41,686 nucleotides of DNA from a virus. The position numbers and the translations under genes were made by a program. Location of the stretch: positions 1 to 41,686 of the IMG/VR virus record IMGVR_UViG_3300047495_000038, one strand, 5' to 3'. The notes under the pieces are model-generated. The model ran no database searches. It was not told the DNA's origin and saw only the letters and a program-made list of their open reading frames with translations. Of the stretch, positions 1 to 41,552 are shown piece after piece; the first letter of the stretch is position 1; each line of letters opens with the position of its first letter.

Positions 1-465
1 TGTCATTTTCAAGTTCTTTAGGTCGAGATTTGCGGTGTTCTTCAGGTAGATGGGAGTGTAGACATAGGAGTCGTTCCAAGGCATGCCGTCGGTCGGCTTG
101 TAGTCAGGCCATGACACGAAGTCCAGTGTCAGAGCAGTACCAAGAGAAGAATCATGTTGCTCAGAAGACGCCGCCGTCGATTGCGCGGTGAAGTTCTTCA
201 TTTGTCTGCTACTCACCCACCGGAGTGATTCCGGCAGTCCCACTCCAACACAGCACCAGATCGCGACGGCCGCACTTATGCGCCACCATGTTGGCTGGTC
301 CGTGCGAAGTTCCCACACCAGACCGGTTCCACCCAGAAAAACGGCAGAGAGCCAAAAACAGCATTTGGCAATTGCATACTCTGGAGGAGTCAGCCCAAGC
401 ACGCTAACCCCCACTCCGATGAGCAGTGCGACAACAACACCGACAATACCCCAGGCGATATCCAT
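1..465 (-). CDS. Membrane protein of unknown function, 3' end cut by the window
   Basis: An open minus-strand frame runs from an ATG at 465 off the left edge (155 codons, no stop). The first ~90 residues hold about three hydrophobic segments (starting MDIAWGIVGVVVALLIG), followed by a soluble part rich in Asp, Asn and Tyr. No family was recognised. It lies 52 bp downstream of the esterase/fibre gene on the same strand and may be co-transcribed with it. No clear ribosome binding site precedes the ATG; the frame stays open further upstream, so an earlier TTG start is possible. Local GC drops to about 42-53% in places, lower than the phage core. It could be a phage accessory gene or flanking host sequence. 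Confidence 0.55.
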   Translation of the reverse strand, partial: MDIAWGIVGVVVALLIGVGVSVLGLTPPEYAIAKCCFWLSAVFLGGTGLVWELRTDQPTWWRISAAVAIWCCVGVGLPESLRWVSSRQMKNFTAQSTAASSEQHDSSLGTALTLDFVSWPDYKPTDGMPWNDSYVYTPIYLKNTANLDLKNLKMT

Positions 466-517
466 GAAGGCAAGTGTCTCAACAGGGTCGCTGAAGAACA
501 AGGTGACATTTGATCGA

Positions 518-3500
518 TCATTGCTGCTCTGCTCTCCACCGGGAATAGGCCTCGAAGATCTTGGCGTTACCCGCGTCCGTCCAATGCAGGTTGTCGTTGT
601 AGAAGAGACCTGGATTTTCGCCGAAGTTCAGCGCGTCTGAGCGAAACACCGGAACGCCATATTGTCTGCATATTGTCTGCGCTGCTCCGGAGAACAGGTA
701 GAAGTTGGGGTTGGTCGGTGGGTACTGGGGGAGGACGTACTTGACGTTGGCTCCCTGGCCCTGGAGGTACGCGAACATCCTCGCGAGCCCCGCCTGGAAC
801 GCCGCCAGCCCACTCGGGCCGCCTGCCATGTCGTTCGTGATGAGGTCGATAATGACCTCGGGAGAGCTTCCGCCGCCAAGCGCTGTGGCTTGCTTCAGTG
901 CAGACGCCATCTCCTGAGTTTGGAAGTTGGTGGTTGCGAAGCCGCCGTGAGAGGCCCGCATGGTGTAGATGGGGTTCGAACCGGTGACCAGCGCGGTGGG
1001 GTTTTGCCGGACCAAGCCGGTGATGACGACCGGACCCCCTGTTGCGGTGAGAGTGTACGTTCCGGAGGCGGTCTGCCCGGTCGATGTGGGGCCTGAGTAC
1101 ACGTCGGTGGTAGCCGTCCCGGCCGTGTTCACCGTCTTGAACGTGGTCCCGTTGTATGCCATGACGACGGAGCCTGCGCTGGGAGACTGATCGTAGAAGA
1201 AGTCGACCTGAGTGTAAGCGCCGGTGAAGGTGATCGATCCGCCAGCAGCGAGTGTCGTCGATGAGTTGATCGGGCCTGTCGAGTTGTCGGTGTTTCCGCT
1301 CAGCGTCAGACCGTAAAAAGAGAGCGGCTGATTGGTGGTGTCCGCGCTGCTGTGGAAGAAGTCGTTCACCGGCAGCATGGTCCCGGCGAAACCGTAATTG
1401 ATCCAGTTCGTGTACAGATCGAACCATGTGTTTGCTGCGACGGTCGCGCCGGTACCTGCAAACAAGCTATCGCCCATGAGAATGATGGCGGATCCAGTCG
1501 ACGACTGAAGTGCGAGAGCTGAGCGGTTAGCGAGCTGCAGGCTGGTGTCATGGGGCGTGCGCCAGATCGGATGGCGGACGCCACTCACAAACAGAGTGCC
1601 GTCGCCCCAGAAGCCCTGGCCGTGCTTCGGAATGGAGGTCAGCGAGAACTTACCCACCGGCACGTAGGGAGAGGGATGCGCGGTCAGTGCGGAGGAGAAG
1701 AACGCGGTGGCGTCAGTCGCGCCGGTGGCGTCTGCTCCCGCGAGTAACCCGATCCCGGCACCTGCGGTGGTGCTGTTTGCGCTTCCGGCGGCAAGGGTGT
1801 CGAAGACGCCCGAGGTCACCGTGTAGTTATAAGGGACCGTTGTATTGGAGAAGGTTCCTTGAGCAGGCGTATTTGTGCCGACGACCCCGTTGGCGTACCA
1901 CACACTACTTGTGCCGGCAGAAGCCTTGATGCCGTTCACATAGATGCCAAAGTACTGCCCCGCCGTGATCGGGAGCGAAAAACCAGAGAAGGAGTTGAGG
2001 CCGGCCCCGTTGACCGGGAGAGATGCGGACGTCGCAGTCGCGGTATAGGTTCCGTTGCCGTTATTCGTAGCTACGAAGAAGGTGATGCTCCCTGTGCCTG
2101 ACGTGTAGACAAGGGCGCTCCGGACATTGCCGGTGGCAGTCGACGGGATCTGGTTGATGTACGAGAAGGTTCCGAAGCTCGAAGTGCCGTTCGCCGGCGA
2201 TGCGAGCCCCTGAACCGATGTCGCGCCCACCGTTCCAAGTGCAGCGGTGTTGGCGGCGATGTTCTGCTCATCACCGTTGAGTTGCTTGGCCAGGCCTGAA
2301 CCAACAGAGAAGTTGAACTGAGGGATACCTGGAAGAGCGCAACTGGTCGGAGCGGTGGACGTGGAGATTTGACCTGTTGTGTAGCAGCTGTGGGTTGTGC
2401 CGCTGAACGAGAGGGGGCTGCCTCCGCTGCCGGCGGAGTAAATTCCGAGGTACTGCCCGGCCGCGATCGGGAGGGACAGATTGCTGAAAGTGTTCAGACC
2501 AGGAACGAGGGATACGCTGGCTGTGGCGGTCGACGTATAGGTTCCGCCGCTGAAGGTAGCCACGATGAGTGTTGCGGGCGAGACCGAGACAGCATAGACC
2601 TGAGCGCCGTAGACAGTGCCAGAGCTCGCGGCTGGGGAGAGGCTTAGATACGTTTTGCCGTTATCGTAGGTCTGGCCACCGTTGACCGGGGTTGCTGGGC
2701 CGATCTGCGTCAGGCTTCCCAGTGCAGCTGACGTCGCGGAGGCGAGGCTTGCGGTGCTGGAGAGAGTTGCCTGCGAAGTCGAGATGGAATCGTAGAGACC
2801 AGTGGTGATGATCCCGTTGACCTGGGCTGTTCCGGTGATCGACGTCATGGACGTCGACGTGCCCGTCAGTCCGACAGCGTAGTACAGAGTTCCGGTGGAG
2901 GCGACGGCTACCGAGGAGCCGACGGTGTTGCCGAAGGCGTCGGTGGCAGGAGTATAGATCCCGAGGAGCTGCCCGGCCGTGATCGGCAGCGACAGACCGT
3001 AGAACGTGTTCTGTCCGGCGACGAGAGAGACGCTCACCGAGGCATTCAGCGTGAAGGTCCCGCCCCCGTTGGCCGTCGCTACAAAGAGGGTTGCGGGTGA
3101 AGAAGCCACAGCGTAAACCGAAGCGGTGTGAATCGTGCCACTCGCGGGGGCGGGCGTCGAGTTGATGAGAGAATCGCCAGCCGTGTACGTGCTTCCTGTT
3201 GCCAGGCTCGCAGGGCCGATTGTGGAGGAGTTCCCGAGACCCGCCAGCTGTGAGAGCTGGGTGGAGTTCAAGGTTCCAGCGGCTGCCAGCAGCGCCCATT
3301 TCGTGGGGCTTGAGGGAGGCGCGTTAGCCGTGTTGCCGGACGTCAGACTGACGTAGCTGGAGCCGTCCGTGTAGGAGGCAGAGTCTCCGATCGCATAAGT
3401 GGTCGACGCAGAGTATGCGCCCTTGAAGCTGACAGGCGGTCCCTGCGGGCCGGTCAGAGCGATGTAAACACCGTTGTGGCAGACATACGCACCGGTGGAG

Positions 3501-4024
3501 TCGCTTGGAATCCAGATGGACGGCGAGGTGCAGTTTGACGGCACGCCGGTTCCATAGCCGACTGTGTTGGACAGTGGAGTCGACACACTCACAGGAGGCG
3601 TGTACTGTTCGAGCGCGAAGGCAGGACCGCAGACGTTGGGAACCGCGGAAAACGGAATCGCTGATCCGCTCGCGGAACCTCCGGCCGTCAGAACTTGAAT
3701 CGAGAAGTTATATCGAATTGGCGCAGATGCATTGGTGTGGCATGCATCTGGAACATTGAGGCCGCCAGTAAGAACGCCGCCCGTGACCGTTCCGCAGAGG
3801 CTTGGCGTCGGTAATACCAGGCCCCAAGTAGGCGCGGAAACCGTAATGGGATTGCCATACTGATCTGCTGGGGTAGCGCAAACCCGTGCATTTGCAACGG
3901 CCGTGCCGCCCGCCTGAAGACTGGCCAGCGTGACATTCGTGGTGTAGTTCGGTGTCGACTGAGCGAAGCTAGGAAGGGAAAGCAGTAGGACAAGCGGAGC
4001 TAGCAAACGAGAGAGAAAGCGCAT
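518..4024 (-). CDS. Exported tail-fibre-like protein with C-terminal SGNH/GDSL esterase domain
   Basis: 1168 residues. Residues 1-21 form a textbook signal peptide (basic MRFLSR, leucine core, cleavage near SFA-Q). A short collagen-like GPQGPP lies at ~192-197. A carbohydrate-binding (CBM5/12-like) segment follows at ~199-246, with the usual Y..GD...Y.G..Y pattern. Three diverged beta-rich repeats follow at ~255-440, ~440-600 and ~600-760, each with a core like LPITAGQxLGIY. After a short Gly-rich lead comes an SGNH hydrolase with GDS at Ser853, an Asn block (ITND) and the DxxH block at Asp1144/His1147. The likely role is binding and deacylating surface glycans. The architecture is that of a receptor-binding fibre, but a signal peptide is unexpected for a virion protein, so an exported lysogeny protein is the alternative. 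It lies 69 bp downstream of the early operon. Confidence 0.75.
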   Translation of the reverse strand: MRFLSRLLAPLVLLLSLPSFAQSTPNYTTNVTLASLQAGGTAVANARVCATPADQYGNPITVSAPTWGLVLPTPSLCGTVTGGVLTGGLNVPDACHTNASAPIRYNFSIQVLTAGGSASGSAIPFSAVPNVCGPAFALEQYTPPVSVSTPLSNTVGYGTGVPSNCTSPSIWIPSDSTGAYVCHNGVYIALTGPQGPPVSFKGAYSASTTYAIGDSASYTDGSSYVSLTSGNTANAPPSSPTKWALLAAAGTLNSTQLSQLAGLGNSSTIGPASLATGSTYTAGDSLINSTPAPASGTIHTASVYAVASSPATLFVATANGGGTFTLNASVSVSLVAGQNTFYGLSLPITAGQLLGIYTPATDAFGNTVGSSVAVASTGTLYYAVGLTGTSTSMTSITGTAQVNGIITTGLYDSISTSQATLSSTASLASATSAALGSLTQIGPATPVNGGQTYDNGKTYLSLSPAASSGTVYGAQVYAVSVSPATLIVATFSGGTYTSTATASVSLVPGLNTFSNLSLPIAAGQYLGIYSAGSGGSPLSFSGTTHSCYTTGQISTSTAPTSCALPGIPQFNFSVGSGLAKQLNGDEQNIAANTAALGTVGATSVQGLASPANGTSSFGTFSYINQIPSTATGNVRSALVYTSGTGSITFFVATNNGNGTYTATATSASLPVNGAGLNSFSGFSLPITAGQYFGIYVNGIKASAGTSSVWYANGVVGTNTPAQGTFSNTTVPYNYTVTSGVFDTLAAGSANSTTAGAGIGLLAGADATGATDATAFFSSALTAHPSPYVPVGKFSLTSIPKHGQGFWGDGTLFVSGVRHPIWRTPHDTSLQLANRSALALQSSTGSAIILMGDSLFAGTGATVAANTWFDLYTNWINYGFAGTMLPVNDFFHSSADTTNQPLSFYGLTLSGNTDNSTGPINSSTTLAAGGSITFTGAYTQVDFFYDQSPSAGSVVMAYNGTTFKTVNTAGTATTDVYSGPTSTGQTASGTYTLTATGGPVVITGLVRQNPTALVTGSNPIYTMRASHGGFATTNFQTQEMASALKQATALGGGSSPEVIIDLITNDMAGGPSGLAAFQAGLARMFAYLQGQGANVKYVLPQYPPTNPNFYLFSGAAQTICRQYGVPVFRSDALNFGENPGLFYNDNLHWTDAGNAKIFEAYSRWRAEQQ

Positions 4025-4093: not shown

Positions 4094-4570
4094 CTAGCTC
4101 GCCATCGACCGCATGCGTTCGCAGAGCTGCTGGAGCGACCGTTTGCTGATGCGCCAGAGACCGTCGTCGTGAACTTTGTAGGAAAGCAGCTTGCCCTCTT
4201 CACAGAGGTGCCGTACGGTTTGCTCGGCGTAGCGTAGGACGTCGGCGACCTCAGCAATTGTCATCGTGTCTTCAGCCAGAGAAAAAGGCATCAGCTCTTC
4301 ATCGCGATAGCGGCCAAAGATGCCGCCGCGCTTGGGCCTGGTGTCTTCAATGTGGTACTTCTCCCGGAGCTTGTCGCAGTACTCGACGATGGATTGATAG
4401 GAGATGAAGTAGTTCCCGGTCTCATGCTTCCGAAACGCCCTGATAAGCTTCTTCTCGATAAGGAAGAGCACCACCGATCGCGAGACGCCGAAGATCTTCA
4501 TCGTCCGGCGCACGGACACCTCGTCGCGTTCAGCGAAAGGCAGAGCGAACTGGGATTCGGGATGGGTCAC
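4094..4570 (-). CDS. Regulator with two excisionase/MerR-type HTH domains, Mor-like position
   Basis: I prefer the GTG at 4570, two bases after the upstream stop with GGAG in front (158 aa). An ATG at 4639 would add 23 residues and overlap the GemA-like gene by 68 bp. There are two helix-turn-helix units: one around MKIFGVSRSVVLFLIEKKLI and a C-terminal one around TIAEVADVLRYAEQTVRHL, both of the excisionase/MerR N-terminal type. It is the last gene of the early operon, straight after GemA. In Mu the activator of middle transcription (Mor) sits there, so a role in the early-to-late switch is inferred from position. There is no sequence similarity to Mor that I can see. Confidence 0.75.
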   Translation of the reverse strand: MTHPESQFALPFAERDEVSVRRTMKIFGVSRSVVLFLIEKKLIRAFRKHETGNYFISYQSIVEYCDKLREKYHIEDTRPKRGGIFGRYRDEELMPFSLAEDTMTIAEVADVLRYAEQTVRHLCEEGKLLSYKVHDDGLWRISKRSLQQLCERMRSMAS

Positions 4571-4571
4571 G

Positions 4572-5087
4572 TCAACCGGCTCTCCGTTCCGGATCAGGCT
4601 TGATGTGGTTGAGCGCCCAGTGGACGCGGTTGGCGTCATGCAGGGTGCGGATGACGGTTCGGCGGTCGATCGGGCTGCGCGGTGAGGCGAGGAAGGCTTC
4701 CAGCCGCGCCTGGTCCCAGCCTAGGCGGTCCAGGTCGCGCTGGATCCGCGCGATGTCCCGCGGGCCGACCAGGGTGATCTCGTCGTGGAGCTGATCGTGG
4801 CGGCCTTCGGTGCCCTGCTTCTCGGCGTCGCGGCGCGTCGGCCGACGGCGTGGCGACTTCGACGGCACCTTGCGCCCGAGCGCGCTCTGCAGCGTGTCGA
4901 TGAGGCGTCGGCCTTCGTCGAGGGTCAGGTCCTTGAAGCTCGTGACGGCGCGGCCTGCGGCCTGTGAGGCCCACTGCAGGCGCTCCTGGCGAGCCGCGCC
5001 TGGCGCGTCGAGCGAATGTCGCTCGTACTGGCCGTAGAGAATCTGTAGGCGCTGGATCTGGGCGGGGGTGATGGTGGCGGCGATCAT
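4572..5087 (-). CDS. gemA: GemA/Gp16-like early regulatory protein (DUF1018 family)
   Basis: 171 residues. The N-terminus (ITPAQIQRLQILYGQYERH...) and the following segment with V-T-S-F-K-D-L-T...EGRRLIDTL match the layout of Mu Gp16/GemA proteins, which modulate host gene expression and DNA topology during early growth. The middle is basic (PSKSPRRRPTRRDAEK). The C-terminal half (IARIQRDLDRLGWDQARLEAFL) is a helical region typical of phage GemA homologues. The start codon overlaps the previous stop as ATGA, so translation is coupled. In Mu, gemA directly precedes mor, and here it directly precedes the two-HTH regulator, which supports the assignment. Confidence 0.65.
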   Translation of the reverse strand: MIAATITPAQIQRLQILYGQYERHSLDAPGAARQERLQWASQAAGRAVTSFKDLTLDEGRRLIDTLQSALGRKVPSKSPRRRPTRRDAEKQGTEGRHDQLHDEITLVGPRDIARIQRDLDRLGWDQARLEAFLASPRSPIDRRTVIRTLHDANRVHWALNHIKPDPERRAG

Positions 5088-6954: not shown

Positions 6955-7556
6955 CAGAGGGCTGCCTTATCCAAAGGCTGTTCGCGCCACGCGTAGGCCG
7001 TCTTATCCCTTACCCCGCCCTTCACAGTGTGGCCTTGTGCTTTTGCCTTGGAGCGTAGCTGCGTCAAGGTGTTGGTCGCGTGCTTGGGATCTTTACACGG
7101 AATTTCAAGAGCCTTTTCTGCAGGGGCTTTCAACAGTTCCGCAAGCAGGACGTCGATGCGCCCCCGCGAAGTGAACTCCGGAAGATCACTCCGGTCAATC
7201 AGGCGGAAAGGTCCTTCTTGGGTGACGGGGACCGCAGGAGGAAGCTTGGTTAGAGCAGACGTAATCATCGGCTTTTCCTTTTGTGTTGGGTGTGTGGTGC
7301 GTTTCGGTGATCGGATCGCCTTCGTTCCGGTAACCGGTTTCGTGTACGCCTGATCCGCAATCGGTTCTGGGCGCTTCCAGGAGAGTTGGGGAGCTTGCTC
7401 GCGGGCTCTGCGTTCAGCAGCGTCTTTCGCTCGCATCTCTTCCGTCACCTCGATCGAGACGCACGGGGCCGGGCAGAACCGCTCGTCTTCGATTGGTTCA
7501 CCGAAGACATCGCAATTGCGCAGAGCGCCAGGCGTCAGGAACGGGTTCCGGTTCAT
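6954..7556 (-). CDS. Early phage protein of unknown function
   Basis: 200 residues. The first ~90 are low in predicted structure, with a C..C pair (CPAPC) and a basic linker rich in Lys, Thr and Pro. Residues ~95-200 look folded: a helix around RIDVLLAELLKAPAEKALEI, then TLTQLRSKAKAQGHTVKG and VRDKTAYAWRE. The C-terminal part resembles short phage domains thought to bind nucleic acid, but this is only an impression. ATGA overlap upstream and TGATG overlap downstream. Confidence 0.6.
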   Translation of the reverse strand: MNRNPFLTPGALRNCDVFGEPIEDERFCPAPCVSIEVTEEMRAKDAAERRAREQAPQLSWKRPEPIADQAYTKPVTGTKAIRSPKRTTHPTQKEKPMITSALTKLPPAVPVTQEGPFRLIDRSDLPEFTSRGRIDVLLAELLKAPAEKALEIPCKDPKHATNTLTQLRSKAKAQGHTVKGGVRDKTAYAWREQPLDKAAL

Positions 7557-11023: not shown

Positions 11024-11400
11024 TACCGGAGGCTCCGCTCGATCGCGCCGGTGGCACTGGCGGTCCAGACAATCCAGACGAGGTATCCAGCCACGACGGA
11101 AAGAAGCAGGGCGCAACCGGAGGTGGCGGCGCGATCGGCGCGGTTCTGGTCCGAGAAGTCGATCCAGCGGCTCAACTCCTCATGCATGAAGAAGCCGATC
11201 AGGCCGAGTGCGGCGAGGCAGAGAAACAGGGTGTCGATCACGCGCGGCAAGGCCTTGCCGATCTTGCAGGCGCGTGCGATGTACCGGCTCTGCAGGCTGA
11301 TCACGGTGACGGTGCGGGCTGGCTGAGTCTCGCGCACACCGGCGCGGTCCAGGTAGCGGCGGGCGTGAAGAGGCATTGGCGGAGTGAGGGGGCGGCTCAT
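11023..11400 (-). CDS. Two-helix membrane protein directly after MuB
   Basis: 125 residues. Two membrane segments are visible at ~54-72 (VIDTLFLCLAALGLIGFFM) and ~94-115 (CALLLSVVAGYLVWIVW), with a basic cytoplasmic-looking N-terminus. It starts in an ATGA overlap with the MuB-like gene. Mu has kil and other host-takeover genes just after B, so an inner-membrane effector or exclusion protein is plausible. This is inferred from position; no family was recognised. Confidence 0.65.
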   Translation of the reverse strand: MSRPLTPPMPLHARRYLDRAGVRETQPARTVTVISLQSRYIARACKIGKALPRVIDTLFLCLAALGLIGFFMHEELSRWIDFSDQNRADRAATSGCALLLSVVAGYLVWIVWTASATGAIERSLR

Positions 11401-12437
11401 ACTGCGCTCTCTTTCTGCGCTGCGGCGAACTGTGTCCGCAGATCGTCCAGCGCGTTGCAAAGGGTGCGGATGTTGATGTAGGTGGCCTGCGGGGATCCTT
11501 CCGCCACTGGAACGTAGGCATCGATCACGGTCGCGCCCTTGATGAGCTTGTCTGCGATCTGGTCCGCGGTGGACTTGCGGTCCTTGCCGGAGAGCGATGG
11601 CGCATTGGGGATGTGGCCGGCCTCGCGGAAGACGATGGCGCGTGCCTCCTCCTGCGAGCAGCCGGGGAGCCGCACCTTCTGCGCGATGCGGGAGTTCCAC
11701 TGCTCCAGCGTGGCGCTGGCCCGCTCGAACATCCGGAAGAGGTCATGCGACCCGGTGATGAGGAGCGAGAAGAGTTGACTGTCCAGCAGCTCGCGGATGA
11801 CCTCGAAGCAGGACAGGTCCATCAGTTGGGCTTCATCAATCACCAGCACCGAGCGGTGGCCCTGATGATCGATCCGGAGGTTGGTGAGGATGCGGTCGAT
11901 GCTGCCCGTGCTCTGCGTGCCGCACGCGGTGGCGATGCGCTTGAGCATGTCGCTGGGCCGGATGCCTTCGCGGGCGCGAACGTAGTAGGCGCGGCCGGCG
12001 TTCTGTCCCTTGGCGATCTCGCGCTGGTTGAGCGCGTAGACCTCATGCTGCACGACGAATGTCTTCTGGCTTCCGGGCGGCGCGTAGATCATGAAGGCAC
12101 GCGGCCGGATGAGCAGCTTAGTGAAGGTGTCCCGGATCAGCCGGACGTTGGCCGTCTCAAACAGATCGCCCTCGACCGGACGGACGGGCGCGATCGGATG
12201 CGCCTCCATGTACGCCTGGGCCGCCTTGATGATGTTCCACTCGGCGCGGGATACGTTCAGGTTCTTCTTGCCGAGAAACGTGGTGATGGTGCGGGCTGAG
12301 AAACCGATGCGCTTGGCGAAATCTGAGGGATGGATCCCGGTGCGATCGACATAGTCGATGACAGCGATCTGGCAGGCGTGCCGGTGGTCTTTCGCCACCT
12401 GGAACAACTGCCGTTCGGAATGGGGTAGAAGGCTCAT
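11397..12437 (-). CDS. MuB-like AAA+ ATPase, transposition target selector
   Basis: 346 residues. An N-terminal HTH (~35-60, FAKRIGFSARTITTFLG) is followed by an AAA+ core: Walker A APPGSQKT at 119-126, Walker B VLVIDEAQ at 197-204 and a sensor segment LLITGSHD at ~226-233. This is the domain order of the MuB/IstB-like transposition ATPases. In Mu, MuB coats target DNA in an ATP-dependent way, delivers it to the transposome and protects phage DNA from self-insertion. Start overlaps the MuA stop (ATGA). The Walker A motif lacks the second glycine of GxxGxGKT, having Gln before Lys, as seen in other members of this group. Confidence 0.9.
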   Translation of the reverse strand: MSLLPHSERQLFQVAKDHRHACQIAVIDYVDRTGIHPSDFAKRIGFSARTITTFLGKKNLNVSRAEWNIIKAAQAYMEAHPIAPVRPVEGDLFETANVRLIRDTFTKLLIRPRAFMIYAPPGSQKTFVVQHEVYALNQREIAKGQNAGRAYYVRAREGIRPSDMLKRIATACGTQSTGSIDRILTNLRIDHQGHRSVLVIDEAQLMDLSCFEVIRELLDSQLFSLLITGSHDLFRMFERASATLEQWNSRIAQKVRLPGCSQEEARAIVFREAGHIPNAPSLSGKDRKSTADQIADKLIKGATVIDAYVPVAEGSPQATYINIRTLCNALDDLRTQFAAAQKESAV

Positions 12438-14554
12438 GCGAGGAGTTCTCCAAGAACGTCTTTTGCGAGGTCGAAGGCTGAGGCTGGGGCGTGGGCGTGG
12501 TCGTTCGGCCGAAGAGCCTGGCGAACGATGCGTTGGGAGATCAGGTCGTCGACGGGCGTCTTCGCGGCAACGCGTTCGGCGAGGTGCTCGATAGCAGACT
12601 TGTGTCCGGCCAGGGCTACCTGCTCGTGCATGGTCGCGATGGCGATGCTGGACGCCTTGAGCAGACGGCCTTTGGTCTGGCTCATCTGCCGCACGGGCTC
12701 ACGGGATTCAGGGGTCGAAATCAGAGGATTCTCGACGAGCGTCTCTGCGATCAGGTCTGCCAGCTTGCGGCCGGAGTCGTCCAGGGCGACCGCACGTTGC
12801 GGATCGAGCGGATCGAAGACCACGACAACGGTGCGGCGGTTCTCGTTGAATAGACCCGCCCATGACTCGGGAGAAGATGGCGGCGGCATATAGCGTCGCC
12901 CGTCCACAGTCACGGCCGTGCGCCTGACGACAGCCGTGCGGCGCTCATAGAGCAGCTGTGCCAGCACGTCGGGATCCGCTTGCCGCCGATTCGCCAAGGG
13001 ATAGCCCTCGTCGAAAACTTCGTTTGGAGAGCGGCCGCCCATCCCCTTGCCGCGGTGGTGGTGATCGCGGTTGTAGTCCTCCTCGATCCAGGTCTCCGCG
13101 CACTGAATGAAGAAGCTGGCCGGCATCAGAGCCGACTCGCCGCCGCGTCCGGCTTTCACCAGCTTGCGGTGCTGCGCCCCGAGGAGAATCGCCGCGTCCG
13201 GACGGTTGTAGGAGTTGCCGGTCAGATACCCGTGAATGATGGCGTCCAGCCGCTTATGCACAGTACCGAAGAGCCGCTCGATGGGCTTTGCCTGCGCGTT
13301 ATAGGGCAGGCAAAACTTGACCTCGCTGCCGAGCTGCTGGATGGCTCCGCACCGCGCGATGTAGTCTGCGCCCTGCTGGATCGATTCCGCTGTTGGTCGC
13401 GTGCGTTTCGCGCCTTTCGCGACCTTTTTGAAGTCCGCCCCGTTGTCGCAGTAGAAGACCTGGCAAGGACCGTAGCGCTCGGCGGCGCGGCGGAGCGCCG
13501 TGACAATGGACCGCCAGTCGCCCTCGATTGCCCAGCAATAGCCGACTATCTTGCGTGAGCGCATGTCCATAATGCAGGTGAAGCGCAGCCGGACTGGTGC
13601 ATGCAGCGGAAGGCCTGGAAAGCAATCGTTGCTCAACTCCACGTCGTGGATCTGGTGATCGGCAACCCAGAAGGCGTTCGCGGAAATGTCCGTGTATGCG
13701 CGGGCGACGTGCGGTGCGCAGGTCTCGTTGTAGCGGCGGAGACCCTGACGGGCGAGGATCGCTGGCGGTTGTGGCAGGGACTCCAGGAAGTTGCGAACCG
13801 TCTCGTAGCTCGGCAACTCGTCGGCTGGTATCTGCAGCAGCTGTTGATCGCGGATGATGGCGTCGTAGGCTCGGGCGAACGTCGCGTGCGGCTTGTGGCG
13901 CTCCGCCATCGCAAGCATGGCTGCGGCGGGGTATCGGGTGAAGAAGCTGGAGGTGCCCTTGTCCTTGCGAGGCTTACGGGCGAGAGCGGGAAGACCACCC
14001 GTCCGGTACGCCTTGACCCAGGCCCAAAGGGTGGTCCGAGAGACCTTCTTCCGCCCAACCTCTCGCGTCTCGGCGATGTAGCTGGCCATTAGGTTCGCGG
14101 TGGTCACGGCCTGACCGTCCCTGAGCCGCAGAGCGGAGTACTTGGCGCGGTCGAAGTGGAGGAGCGGCTGGATGGCGTCCAGCCGCTCCGCTGCCTGGCG
14201 CTCTGCCTGCGGCGAGAGGCTGATGCGCTGGCCTGGCCGGTCCGGAGCAGGCGCGGCGGCGAAGAGGGGTGCGGACTCCTGGGACGGAGCGGCGGGGCAC
14301 ACCTCAATCTGCGGCTTGCTCGGAGGGCACAGCTTATTGCGAAGCTCCATGGGAAGCGACGCGACCTGGAACTGCCGGATCGGGCGACCGTTCCGGCCGC
14401 GCGTTGAGATCTCGCGGAATCGGGTCTTACCCTCTTTGGCGTAGCGCTGGAGTGTGCGCTCGTGGATGCCCGTCTTCGTGGCGATCTCAGAGGCCGTGAA
14501 CCAGAGATCGGCCTGGTGTATATGGATGGGAAGGTAGGATAGGGCGGCGCTCAC
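12434..14554 (-). CDS. MuA-like DDE transposase
   Basis: 706 residues, close to the 663 of Mu MuA. GTG start in a GTGA overlap with the upstream gene. An N-terminal winged helix (residues ~15-75, WFTASEIATKTGIHERTLQRYAKEG...) matches the Mu DNA-binding domain. A second HTH lies at ~150-200. The RNase H-like catalytic core shows Asp299 (WVADHQIHDV), Asp370 (FYCDNG) and Glu426 (QAKPIERLFG), the DDE triad. The Mu-transposase C-terminal beta-barrel and tail follow from ~520. It cuts and joins phage ends for integration and replicative transposition together with the MuB-like ATPase. All catalytic residues are present, so it is probably active. Confidence 0.95.
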   Translation of the reverse strand: MSAALSYLPIHIHQADLWFTASEIATKTGIHERTLQRYAKEGKTRFREISTRGRNGRPIRQFQVASLPMELRNKLCPPSKPQIEVCPAAPSQESAPLFAAAPAPDRPGQRISLSPQAERQAAERLDAIQPLLHFDRAKYSALRLRDGQAVTTANLMASYIAETREVGRKKVSRTTLWAWVKAYRTGGLPALARKPRKDKGTSSFFTRYPAAAMLAMAERHKPHATFARAYDAIIRDQQLLQIPADELPSYETVRNFLESLPQPPAILARQGLRRYNETCAPHVARAYTDISANAFWVADHQIHDVELSNDCFPGLPLHAPVRLRFTCIMDMRSRKIVGYCWAIEGDWRSIVTALRRAAERYGPCQVFYCDNGADFKKVAKGAKRTRPTAESIQQGADYIARCGAIQQLGSEVKFCLPYNAQAKPIERLFGTVHKRLDAIIHGYLTGNSYNRPDAAILLGAQHRKLVKAGRGGESALMPASFFIQCAETWIEEDYNRDHHHRGKGMGGRSPNEVFDEGYPLANRRQADPDVLAQLLYERRTAVVRRTAVTVDGRRYMPPPSSPESWAGLFNENRRTVVVVFDPLDPQRAVALDDSGRKLADLIAETLVENPLISTPESREPVRQMSQTKGRLLKASSIAIATMHEQVALAGHKSAIEHLAERVAAKTPVDDLISQRIVRQALRPNDHAHAPASAFDLAKDVLGELLA

Positions 14555-38557: not shown

Positions 38558-39234
38558 TGTCGAACAGTCTTCCAGTTTCGATCAAACAGCCGATGGCCGC
38601 GAGCGGCGGTCCTGAGCCCGTCTCGTTGATGGAGCTTCTGACAATCGCTGGAGCCTTGTATACCTGGTCCGATACGAAGCTCACCGCACCGTCGATCCTG
38701 GACGGCTTGGCACCAGCAAACTTCGTGCCTTGGATCGTAAAGGAGCCGGTCTTTGTTCAGTACAAGAGCATCCAGACCGCGACCTTCACCATCTCGATCC
38801 AGAACCTCAGCGGCGACACCATCCGCCGCGACACCGCGCAGATCTTCAACAAGCAGGAGCTAAACGCCGCGCTGGTCTACTTCCGCATCTGGCGGCTCGA
38901 TGCCGAGCGCTCGATCTTCGATTTTCAAGGCAACGTCGACGACGTCGAGATCGAGGCTGACGGCAATTCGATGGACATCACCGGCGAGGGCAGCTTCTCC
39001 TGGTCGAAGATCCAGGCACCCAGCGTGCAAATCGGCCCAAGCTGCGGAAACACCTTCGGCAGCGTGGAATGCGGGTCGACCGCCGCAGTGCCCTGCAACA
39101 ACAGTTATGGAACCTGCTCCTCGATCGAACGTTTCAAAGGTGTGGTCACTGAGTGGGCCGGTGCTTCGAGCAACGTTTCGCAGTACTCCCAGCCTGCGCC
39201 GCTCCGCTTGTACAACCCCAAGGTGGCGAACTAA
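38557..39234 (+). CDS. Tail tip protein (DUF2163/gpL-like) with four cysteines
   Basis: 225 residues. ALYTWSDTKLTAPSILDGLAP, FTISIQNLSGDTIRRDTAQI and a C-terminal set of cysteines at 163, 172, 180 and 187 (CGNTFGSVECG, PCNNSYGTC) match the DUF2163/BR0599 and lambda gpL pattern. In lambda gpL four such cysteines hold an iron-sulphur cluster. It should connect the distal tail ring to the hub. It starts in the stop of the preceding gene. Confidence 0.7.
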   Translation: MSNSLPVSIKQPMAASGGPEPVSLMELLTIAGALYTWSDTKLTAPSILDGLAPANFVPWIVKEPVFVQYKSIQTATFTISIQNLSGDTIRRDTAQIFNKQELNAALVYFRIWRLDAERSIFDFQGNVDDVEIEADGNSMDITGEGSFSWSKIQAPSVQIGPSCGNTFGSVECGSTAAVPCNNSYGTCSSIERFKGVVTEWAGASSNVSQYSQPAPLRLYNPKVAN

Positions 39235-41486
39235 TGTCGCTCAATCCAGCCTTCGATCAACAGACCTCGCGCCCGCTGCCCTTTATGCTCGGCTGGGTAT
39301 ACGGCCAGGGTGATCAGATACTGACCAACGTCGACGCGGAGGGCGAGACGGTCCAGTTCTACATCCTGGGATCGGGCGAGTGGTGGGGGAACTGGGCACT
39401 TTCCCTCGGCTCTGGGACGCGCTACTTCGGCAACAGCGGCCAGCTTGTGGGAGGAATACCAGCTGTCAGGCAGATCGCGAAGATCCACACAGTCAGCAAC
39501 AATCCGATCTTCTACTACTATCATTTCCATAGCGGCGCATTCGGCACCAAGGGTTTGCCGAACAACCTCATTTCGCTTGGACCGGACCAAGGCACAGACT
39601 TCTTCCAGCAGTCGCTTCCCTCTGTGACGCCGGCACTCACCTACAGCGGCATGGCCTACTACGTGGTTCGGGCGACCATCGGCGGCATTGTGGGCGATGT
39701 TCCGGACCTCACACCCCTGGGCGTCTGGATGGCGACGCGCTGCCGGATCTTCGATGCGAACGGCAACGTCACCGGATACGCCTTCACCGTTAACCCCACT
39801 TGGCAAATGATCGAGACACTGCTGCGATTCCAGATCAAGCCACAGCAGCCAGGGCTGGCTGGACTCAGCGCGGCGGAGAAGGCTTGCTTCGACTGGCCGG
39901 CGATGGTGGCGCATGCTCAACGCAACGCGACAATCCTGCCGAACGGCAAGCCGCGGTTCAGTGGAAGCTGGTGCTTCGCGGCAGATACCACCGTCGCGCA
40001 GATGATGGAGATGCAGCTCCGCAACTGCCTCAGCTTCCGTCGCGTGCGAGGTGGCAAGCTGAGCTTTGTGGGGGAAGAGCAGCGGGCCAGCGTGTTCACG
40101 TTCTCGCAGAGGAATATGTTCCCCGGTTCGCTGAAGCTGAACAAGAAGGACCTCAGCAATGCGCCGAACATCTACGTGCCGCAATATCGCGACCTGGAGA
40201 TCCCGGCCGTTTGCGCAGTGGCGTCCGCCATCACGACTCCGCCCACCAGCAACACGGCCACCGTGACCACGTTCACAACGATCGGTCAGCAGCCCTTCTT
40301 CTCAAACGACTACATGACCTATGGCGGCGGCAGTAACGATGTCCAGTTCGCGGGAGAATACCAGGTCGGGCTCTACACGGCGACTCCAGGTGGAAGCAAC
40401 ACAGCCGTGACCATCGCGCCGCCAATCCCGAATCAGTTCGTCGCGCGAGGTGGTCCAGGCGGCCCTTCGGACGGTGCGCTTCAGGCAACCGGCGGGTACG
40501 TCGGCACTCAGCAATCTCGATTCTCTAAGCGCGCGCCGAATGTTGTGCAGCATCGCGCCCATCAGAGGGCAGTTGGTCAGGTGGCTCCCGGTATCCCGCC
40601 GATCCCCAAGTCGATCAGCGTGAGCTACGACATGGGGAACAACACCTTCGATCAGACCAACCGCGTCATGAAGACCCTTATGGCGCGAGATCTCGGCACG
40701 GACGGACCGAACTGGATTGCTCCGCTGAAGGGCACCATCTCCGGATTCCTCGAAGCCGTTGACGTGAGCGGCAGCGCGCTCATCGAGGTCGAGCCGGGAG
40801 ATGTCATCACGCTGGACGATACGGCCGCTCCAGACTTTCCGGGGCTTTACGAGGTCGTCGATCCGCTGACGACCTATGCGCCTTCCGCTCAGGACGGGTC
40901 TGCCTCGAAGCGCGATCTCACCATTCAAACCTACAACCCCGATGCCTTCACCGACGTGAGCGACGATCCAGGCCTGAGCTTCCAGAGTGTTCCGAACAAC
41001 TATCTACCGATGGACGATATCCTGCCGGCGACGCCCGCATGGTGGCTTGTCCAGGCCACACCCCAGGCTAGCTTCGATAGCAGTTCCACGGGATCCATCA
41101 TCGTTCCGGACGTGACGATCTGGTGGCAGGGCGACACCCTGGCAACCGTCTATCCGTTGATCGAAGAGACCGGCGTGCCCATCGGCCAGAAGGTCACGCT
41201 ATACCTCGTCGTAACGGATAAGGCCACGACACCCACGCTCCGTCTGGACACCACCAACGCTGAGCCGCCCCAGCCGCTTCCTGCCGGCAACGTCATCCTG
41301 TTTTATGGGACCTTCACCAACGTCCAGGCGTTCAACGGTCCTACGGTCAACAGCAGCGCTATCCCGGCCGGCTCGTCGCAGGAGCTGCCGGTCGCGGCCG
41401 GTGCCTCCCAGGGCATGGTTTTCACCCCGTCCAACACCTACCTGGACACCTCAAACGCGACCGGAACGACCCTGAGCACCTCATGA
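39234..41486 (+). CDS. Tail hub/tip (J-like) protein
   Basis: 750 residues from the ATG at 39234, inside the preceding stop; the reading from 39153 is too long. It begins RPLPFMLGWVYGQGDQILT and contains beta-rich hub domains (YYVVRATIGGIVGDVPD, LEIPAVCAV..., PKSISVSYDMGNNTFDQTN, ISGFLEAVDVSGSALIEVEPGD) and a C-terminal sandwich (~580-750). It is the last rightward gene and probably the cell-contacting tail tip. No fibre with a receptor-binding end follows it, which is why the leftward esterase at 518-4024 is of interest. Confidence 0.65.
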   Translation: MSLNPAFDQQTSRPLPFMLGWVYGQGDQILTNVDAEGETVQFYILGSGEWWGNWALSLGSGTRYFGNSGQLVGGIPAVRQIAKIHTVSNNPIFYYYHFHSGAFGTKGLPNNLISLGPDQGTDFFQQSLPSVTPALTYSGMAYYVVRATIGGIVGDVPDLTPLGVWMATRCRIFDANGNVTGYAFTVNPTWQMIETLLRFQIKPQQPGLAGLSAAEKACFDWPAMVAHAQRNATILPNGKPRFSGSWCFAADTTVAQMMEMQLRNCLSFRRVRGGKLSFVGEEQRASVFTFSQRNMFPGSLKLNKKDLSNAPNIYVPQYRDLEIPAVCAVASAITTPPTSNTATVTTFTTIGQQPFFSNDYMTYGGGSNDVQFAGEYQVGLYTATPGGSNTAVTIAPPIPNQFVARGGPGGPSDGALQATGGYVGTQQSRFSKRAPNVVQHRAHQRAVGQVAPGIPPIPKSISVSYDMGNNTFDQTNRVMKTLMARDLGTDGPNWIAPLKGTISGFLEAVDVSGSALIEVEPGDVITLDDTAAPDFPGLYEVVDPLTTYAPSAQDGSASKRDLTIQTYNPDAFTDVSDDPGLSFQSVPNNYLPMDDILPATPAWWLVQATPQASFDSSSTGSIIVPDVTIWWQGDTLATVYPLIEETGVPIGQKVTLYLVVTDKATTPTLRLDTTNAEPPQPLPAGNVILFYGTFTNVQAFNGPTVNSSAIPAGSSQELPVAAGASQGMVFTPSNTYLDTSNATGTTLSTS

Positions 41487-41494
41487 GGACAATA

Positions 41495-41552
41495 CAGCCG
41501 ATAAACTGGACTAGTCCGGAATATCTCCTGCATCAGTCCGGTTTATCGGCTG
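41495..41552. repeat. 18-bp-arm inverted repeat with extra internal copy; terminator or transposase end sites
   Basis: Arms 41495-41512 and 41535-41552 are complementary over 18 nt with one G-U/A-C position and a 22-nt loop. A 13-bp core, AGTCCRG..TATC, is present three times: inverted at 41500-41512 and direct at 41513-41525 and 41535-41547. The two direct copies are exactly 22 bp apart. No T-run follows. It lies 8 bp after the last phage gene. It could be a two-way terminator for the convergent genes or a cluster of MuA-type binding sites at the right end of the phage. Confidence 0.55.

Follow-up and report, generated by a model that had tools for sequence, protein, structure and literature searches.

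A Sec signal peptide on a putative receptor-binding tail fibre encoded at the early end of a Mu-like phage of Acidobacteriaceae

The cytoplasm is regarded as the place where tail fibres fold and become attached, and the locus described here raises the question of what a phage would do with a fibre-like protein that begins with an export signal. The window, i.e. the whole stretch of DNA that was analysed, comprises the 41,686 bases of a virus record, in which an uninterrupted open reading frame with an ATG start (518-4024, minus strand) encodes a fibre-type protein of 1168 aa running from a signal peptide to an SGNH-like tip. A first, sequence-only reading had assigned this gene to the early strand, correctly, and had offered two explanations for its product, namely a virion fibre assembled after export or a lysogenic-conversion enzyme, of which the former is now favoured and the latter has become less likely. 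We consider it probable that a Mu-like phage of Acidobacteriaceae has this protein as its receptor-binding tail fibre, which would be exported through the Sec pathway, become locked by disulphides once in the periplasm and join the virions at lysis. This reading is based on phage ownership of the gene, its signal peptide, its fibre architecture, paired cysteines that track the signal, and the recurrence of homologues in tail operons.

The window belongs with the Mu-like phages, judging from PHROG matches to MuA, MuB, a CI-type repressor and terminase. Its minus strand carries the transposition module of MuB and MuA (11397-14554), a GemA-like early gene that is conserved in relatives and served as synteny anchor (4572-5087) and, directly upstream of the fibre, an HTH-like gene (4094-4639), which is the last early gene before the fibre and is conserved beside it in relatives; a tail hub-like gene occupies 39153-41486 on the plus strand, and it is downstream of this gene that relatives have an alternative fibre slot. 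Five IMG/VR relatives identified through the terminase and compared gene by gene were all collinear with the window over the sequence present in their contigs, and a whole-protein match to the fibre was absent from 10 terminase-relative records in IMG/VR. Searching with the GemA-like anchor yielded 33 viral loci and 5 loci in Acidobacteriaceae genomes, the latter pointing to Acidobacteriaceae as the host group, and on sequence grounds the window is assigned to a Mu-like phage of these bacteria.

Ownership of the fibre gene was established through a related complete prophage contained in a 4.67 Mb contig (G247), where a fibre relative stands beside HTH, GemA, MuB and MuA genes in the same order as in the window, so that the previously noted position downstream of the early operon is encountered again. 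There the L158 fibre, whose N-terminal region is 49% identical to that of the window protein, has the early operon on one side and host cdsA on the other, and the opposite end of the related prophage consists of the hub, with host dxr next to it; the prophage is thus inserted between cdsA and dxr with the fibre gene as its last gene, which makes this a gene of the phage. Host synteny that includes the gene, which the sequence-only reading had named as damaging to its proposal, is not what is seen, as the related-prophage gene is inside the insertion. Between fibre and cdsA, L158 contains four copies of AATCCTAGCGACAG (7268-7428) and one inverted near-copy at 7225, which are probable transposase end sites; no inverted match or target duplication fixing the exact phage ends was detected.

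The protein is built like a fibre. Its signal peptide is followed, with all coordinates on the minus strand, by an Ig-like N-terminal domain identified with hhalign and Foldseek (residues 22-145; 3590-3961), by the collagen-like GPQGPP already recognised in the first reading (residues 192-197; 3434-3451), and by a CBM5/12-like segment (residues 199-248; 3281-3430). The carbohydrate-binding character proposed earlier for this segment obtained no Pfam call in the window protein itself and is backed by the similar segment of L064 and L043, which matches CBM_5_12 (PF02839), over the cutoff in L064 only. Three homologous beta repeats (about residues 263-410, 436-575 and 591-745; 1790-3238) were substantiated by pairwise scores of 262, 218 and 192, each above its shuffled maximum (86, 104 and 80, respectively). 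The C-terminal SGNH-type domain (residues 846-1168; 521-1489) was delimited by motifs and a sub-cutoff Pfam match, and it includes both the nucleophile block GDS (851-853) and the DxxH block (DNLH, 1144-1147), as well as TND (1063-1065), with S853, D1144 and H1147 exactly where they had been placed before; GDS is conserved in L158 and L037. Lipase_GDSL_2 (residues 1055-1154, E 8.6e-6) is the sole Pfam match for the protein and falls below the curated cutoff, as does the SGNH match of its relative L158. The structure model of this region (pLDDT 41) was set aside as being of low confidence, a search for the domain in 249 genomes of the order, run without a positive control, returned no matches, close relatives of the whole protein were absent from IMG/VR, and the phage collection contributed just two weak partial matches to a Vibrio phage SGNH protein. 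These motifs suggest that the C-terminal domain is a putative esterase.

The N-terminus reads MRFLSRLLAPLVLLLSLPSFA|QS and corresponds to a Sec signal peptide in residues 1-21 (3962-4024, minus strand) with predicted cleavage at SFA|QS. The earlier impression of a clear signal peptide was upheld by a rule-based scan, which classified it as a classical tripartite Sec signal with a cleavage site; calls were made with our own rule (n-region charge, hydrophobic core, AxA) instead of SignalP. Of the 478 ORFs that reach 300 aa in the window and its relatives, this rule passed only 33, most of which are fibre-type proteins. Among the controls, which were few overall, all 20 large plus-strand ORFs from D3112, RS1 and T7 stretches were negative, Mu S, lambda J and lambda Stf showed no strong signal peptide, and that of lambda Lom was detected. 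A literature search found no published descriptions of signal peptides on tail fibres. While this pattern suggests Sec export of the window protein, the segment might instead be a hydrophobic anchor or an assembly element; we hold this to be quite improbable, given that 20 of 20 fibres have a signal of 17-27 aa with Ala or Ser at -1 and Gln at +1, at sites as placed by us, and that cysteine pairing tracks the signal, as described below.

With regard to the N-domain, an hhalign comparison of A5 with A4 (a profile set of mostly signal-less fibres) gave a match at E 5e-13, and the domain shares homology with its counterpart in phage fibres that lack a signal. Its structure model (pLDDT 69) had as best PDB match in Foldseek the tail fibre of cyanophage A-1(L) (E 1.4e-4, probability 1.00, with a low TM-score of 0.35), and its top fold matches in a viral library include collagen-like and minor tail proteins; by profile and by Foldseek, the latter with that low TM-score, the window protein has a fibre-type N-terminal domain. 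Homologues among the 249 genomes of the order occur in several non-Mu tail clusters, and two of these, the signal-bearing L129 and the signal-less L133, share one location, with a tape-measure-like gene ahead of them and tail genes behind, and have N-domains that are 60% identical; L133 matches the PHROG tail fiber phrog_5240. The phage collection contained no matches to the N-domain of L133 or to those of two relatives, and a phylum-wide search added no genomes to those already found in the order. Fibres with exchangeable tips (phrog_5240; cyanophage A-1(L), 8KEC) resemble the window protein in having an N-terminal beta domain and, in many cases, a collagen-like linker and an enzymatic or lectin-like tip, whereas the Sec signal peptide and the paired cysteines are additional in the window protein. 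Lambda Stf has an N-terminal domain that is weakly similar (hhalign, 51% probability) but, unlike the window protein, no signal peptide.

Cysteine content of the N-domain follows the signal. Signal-bearing members (n=36) have a mean of 3.25 cysteines, in even number in 33 cases, and signal-less members (n=9) a mean of 1.2, odd in 7 and usually one; parity is associated with the signal (Fisher 8e-5, for values that are not independent because the homologues share ancestry). When the Mu-like set is aligned, cysteine columns appear jointly in members that have the signal, and L035 and L037 lack them. Putative pairs in the window protein are 49-77, 95-132 and 165-182, and L031 lacks 95 and 132 together, a pattern that disulphides would produce if these presumed pairings are right.

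Among Mu-like relatives, a large signal-peptide protein adjoins the last early genes in G001, G005, G008, L031, L033, L042, L043, L053, L059 and L064, with an N-domain of the window kind, clearly so in most, and with a different tip, and the early-end fibre is signal-less in L035-L037. The C-terminal tip is variable among relatives, being SGNH-type, CBM-containing or unassigned. In eight other records (L069, L073-L078 and L081) a signal-peptide fibre-like protein instead follows shortly after the hub, with none at the early end. Where both ends could be read, six records have an early-end fibre only (the window, G247, G014, G016, G029 and G039; two of the six signal-less), six have a late fibre only (G017, G018, G033, G037, G040 and G041), and none has both (Fisher 0.002, for records that kinship makes non-independent, in a limited sample in which the early side of three late-only records ends within about 1 kb of GemA). 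The earlier claim that no other fibre gene follows the hub also stood, as the final 200 bp of the window contain no gene beyond the hub and the hub of the related complete prophage abuts host dxr. An export signal joined to receptor-binding architecture would also suit a non-virion fibre that occupies receptors on the infected-cell surface or debris and so blocks superinfection or re-adsorption of progeny. This is improbable, as it would leave the window and the related prophage fibreless, and signal-less homologues in the same slots (L133, L037) show that the fibre works there without export.

A secreted SGNH-type esterase that modifies surface glycans of the lysogen and thereby blocks other phages would likewise account for a signal peptide combined with an SGNH-type domain, in a gene at the prophage edge, a frequent site of accessory genes. 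Lambda Lom provides a precedent, since this signal-peptide protein from the tail cluster is described as a beta-barrel protein of the outer membrane, with a gene that lies among tail genes and is expressed in lysogens (PMC12309495), indicating that such a protein need not belong to the virion; unlike the window protein, it has 206 aa in its record and no fibre architecture. Against a conversion enzyme are the presence of homologues within tail operons of other phages, the variation of tips among relatives, the fibre-type N-domain and the single fibre slot per assessable record. To these can be added Tunturi_1, an isolated podovirus of Tunturiibacter in which no integrase is annotated, as integrase or recombinase genes were reported in Tunturi 3-5 only (PMC11924767), and its tail region has five signal-peptide genes, gp12, gp13, gp14 (tail spike), gp16 and gp17 (virion structural protein), four of them cysteine-rich (10-32 Cys) and gp16 with 2. 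These resemble the window protein as signal-peptide products from the tail region of an acidobacterial phage, although the phage type differs and no shared N-domain was shown. The text of the Tunturi paper mentions neither signal peptides nor mass spectrometry (PMC11924767). No signal-peptide fibres were found within the first 50 kb of each of Tunturi_3 and Tunturi_4, so export is not obligatory. Conversion therefore appears unlikely as the main role, if somewhat less so than receptor occupation, and is possible for temperate members. The exported virion fibre is favoured by slot alternation, tail-operon homologues, the fibre-like N-domain fold, signal-less homologues in the same slot and Tunturi_1; counting against it, a position on the early strand is a poor match for late expression, and a promoter was not identified.

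The exported virion fibre would be made as a Sec precursor, whose chain would move to the periplasm and lose its signal peptide; the cysteine-paired N-domain and the beta repeats would then fold and be oxidised there, a trimer would dock onto the tail tip by way of its N-domain at cell lysis, and the SGNH-type domain may subsequently bind or deacylate host surface glycan. The recurrence of Sec signals and cysteine pairing on fibres of related acidobacterial phages suggests that these are made outside the cytoplasm, by a different maturation route. That acidobacterial phage virions are assembled in two compartments, heads and tails in the cytoplasm and disulphide-locked fibres in the periplasm, with the parts brought together no earlier than lysis, is a tentative extension to which we give slightly less than an even chance. 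Isolated phages with cultured hosts make the maturation route testable now.

Several features near the fibre slots and the window edges were also recorded. Two neighbouring signal-peptide fibre-type genes occur in some prophages (L131, L138, L143). A small gene separates the hub from the late-slot fibre in most records (L069, 5879-6475; L073, 5041-5418; L081, 5008-5358), the L069 copy having no Pfam match. For L071 (2472-6197) and the L070 hub, the C-terminus of the hub ends SHEYLVGGVWTHN, which resembles a Hint-type motif, and a Big_2 domain is the only Pfam report for L071. Beyond the fibre, a partial ORF of 167 aa without a Pfam match (1-501, minus strand) is open at the window edge, and after the hub an inverted repeat, CAGCCGATAAA...TTTATCGGCTG (about 41493-41551), with a similar one after the hub in L166, is likely to be a terminator or end element.
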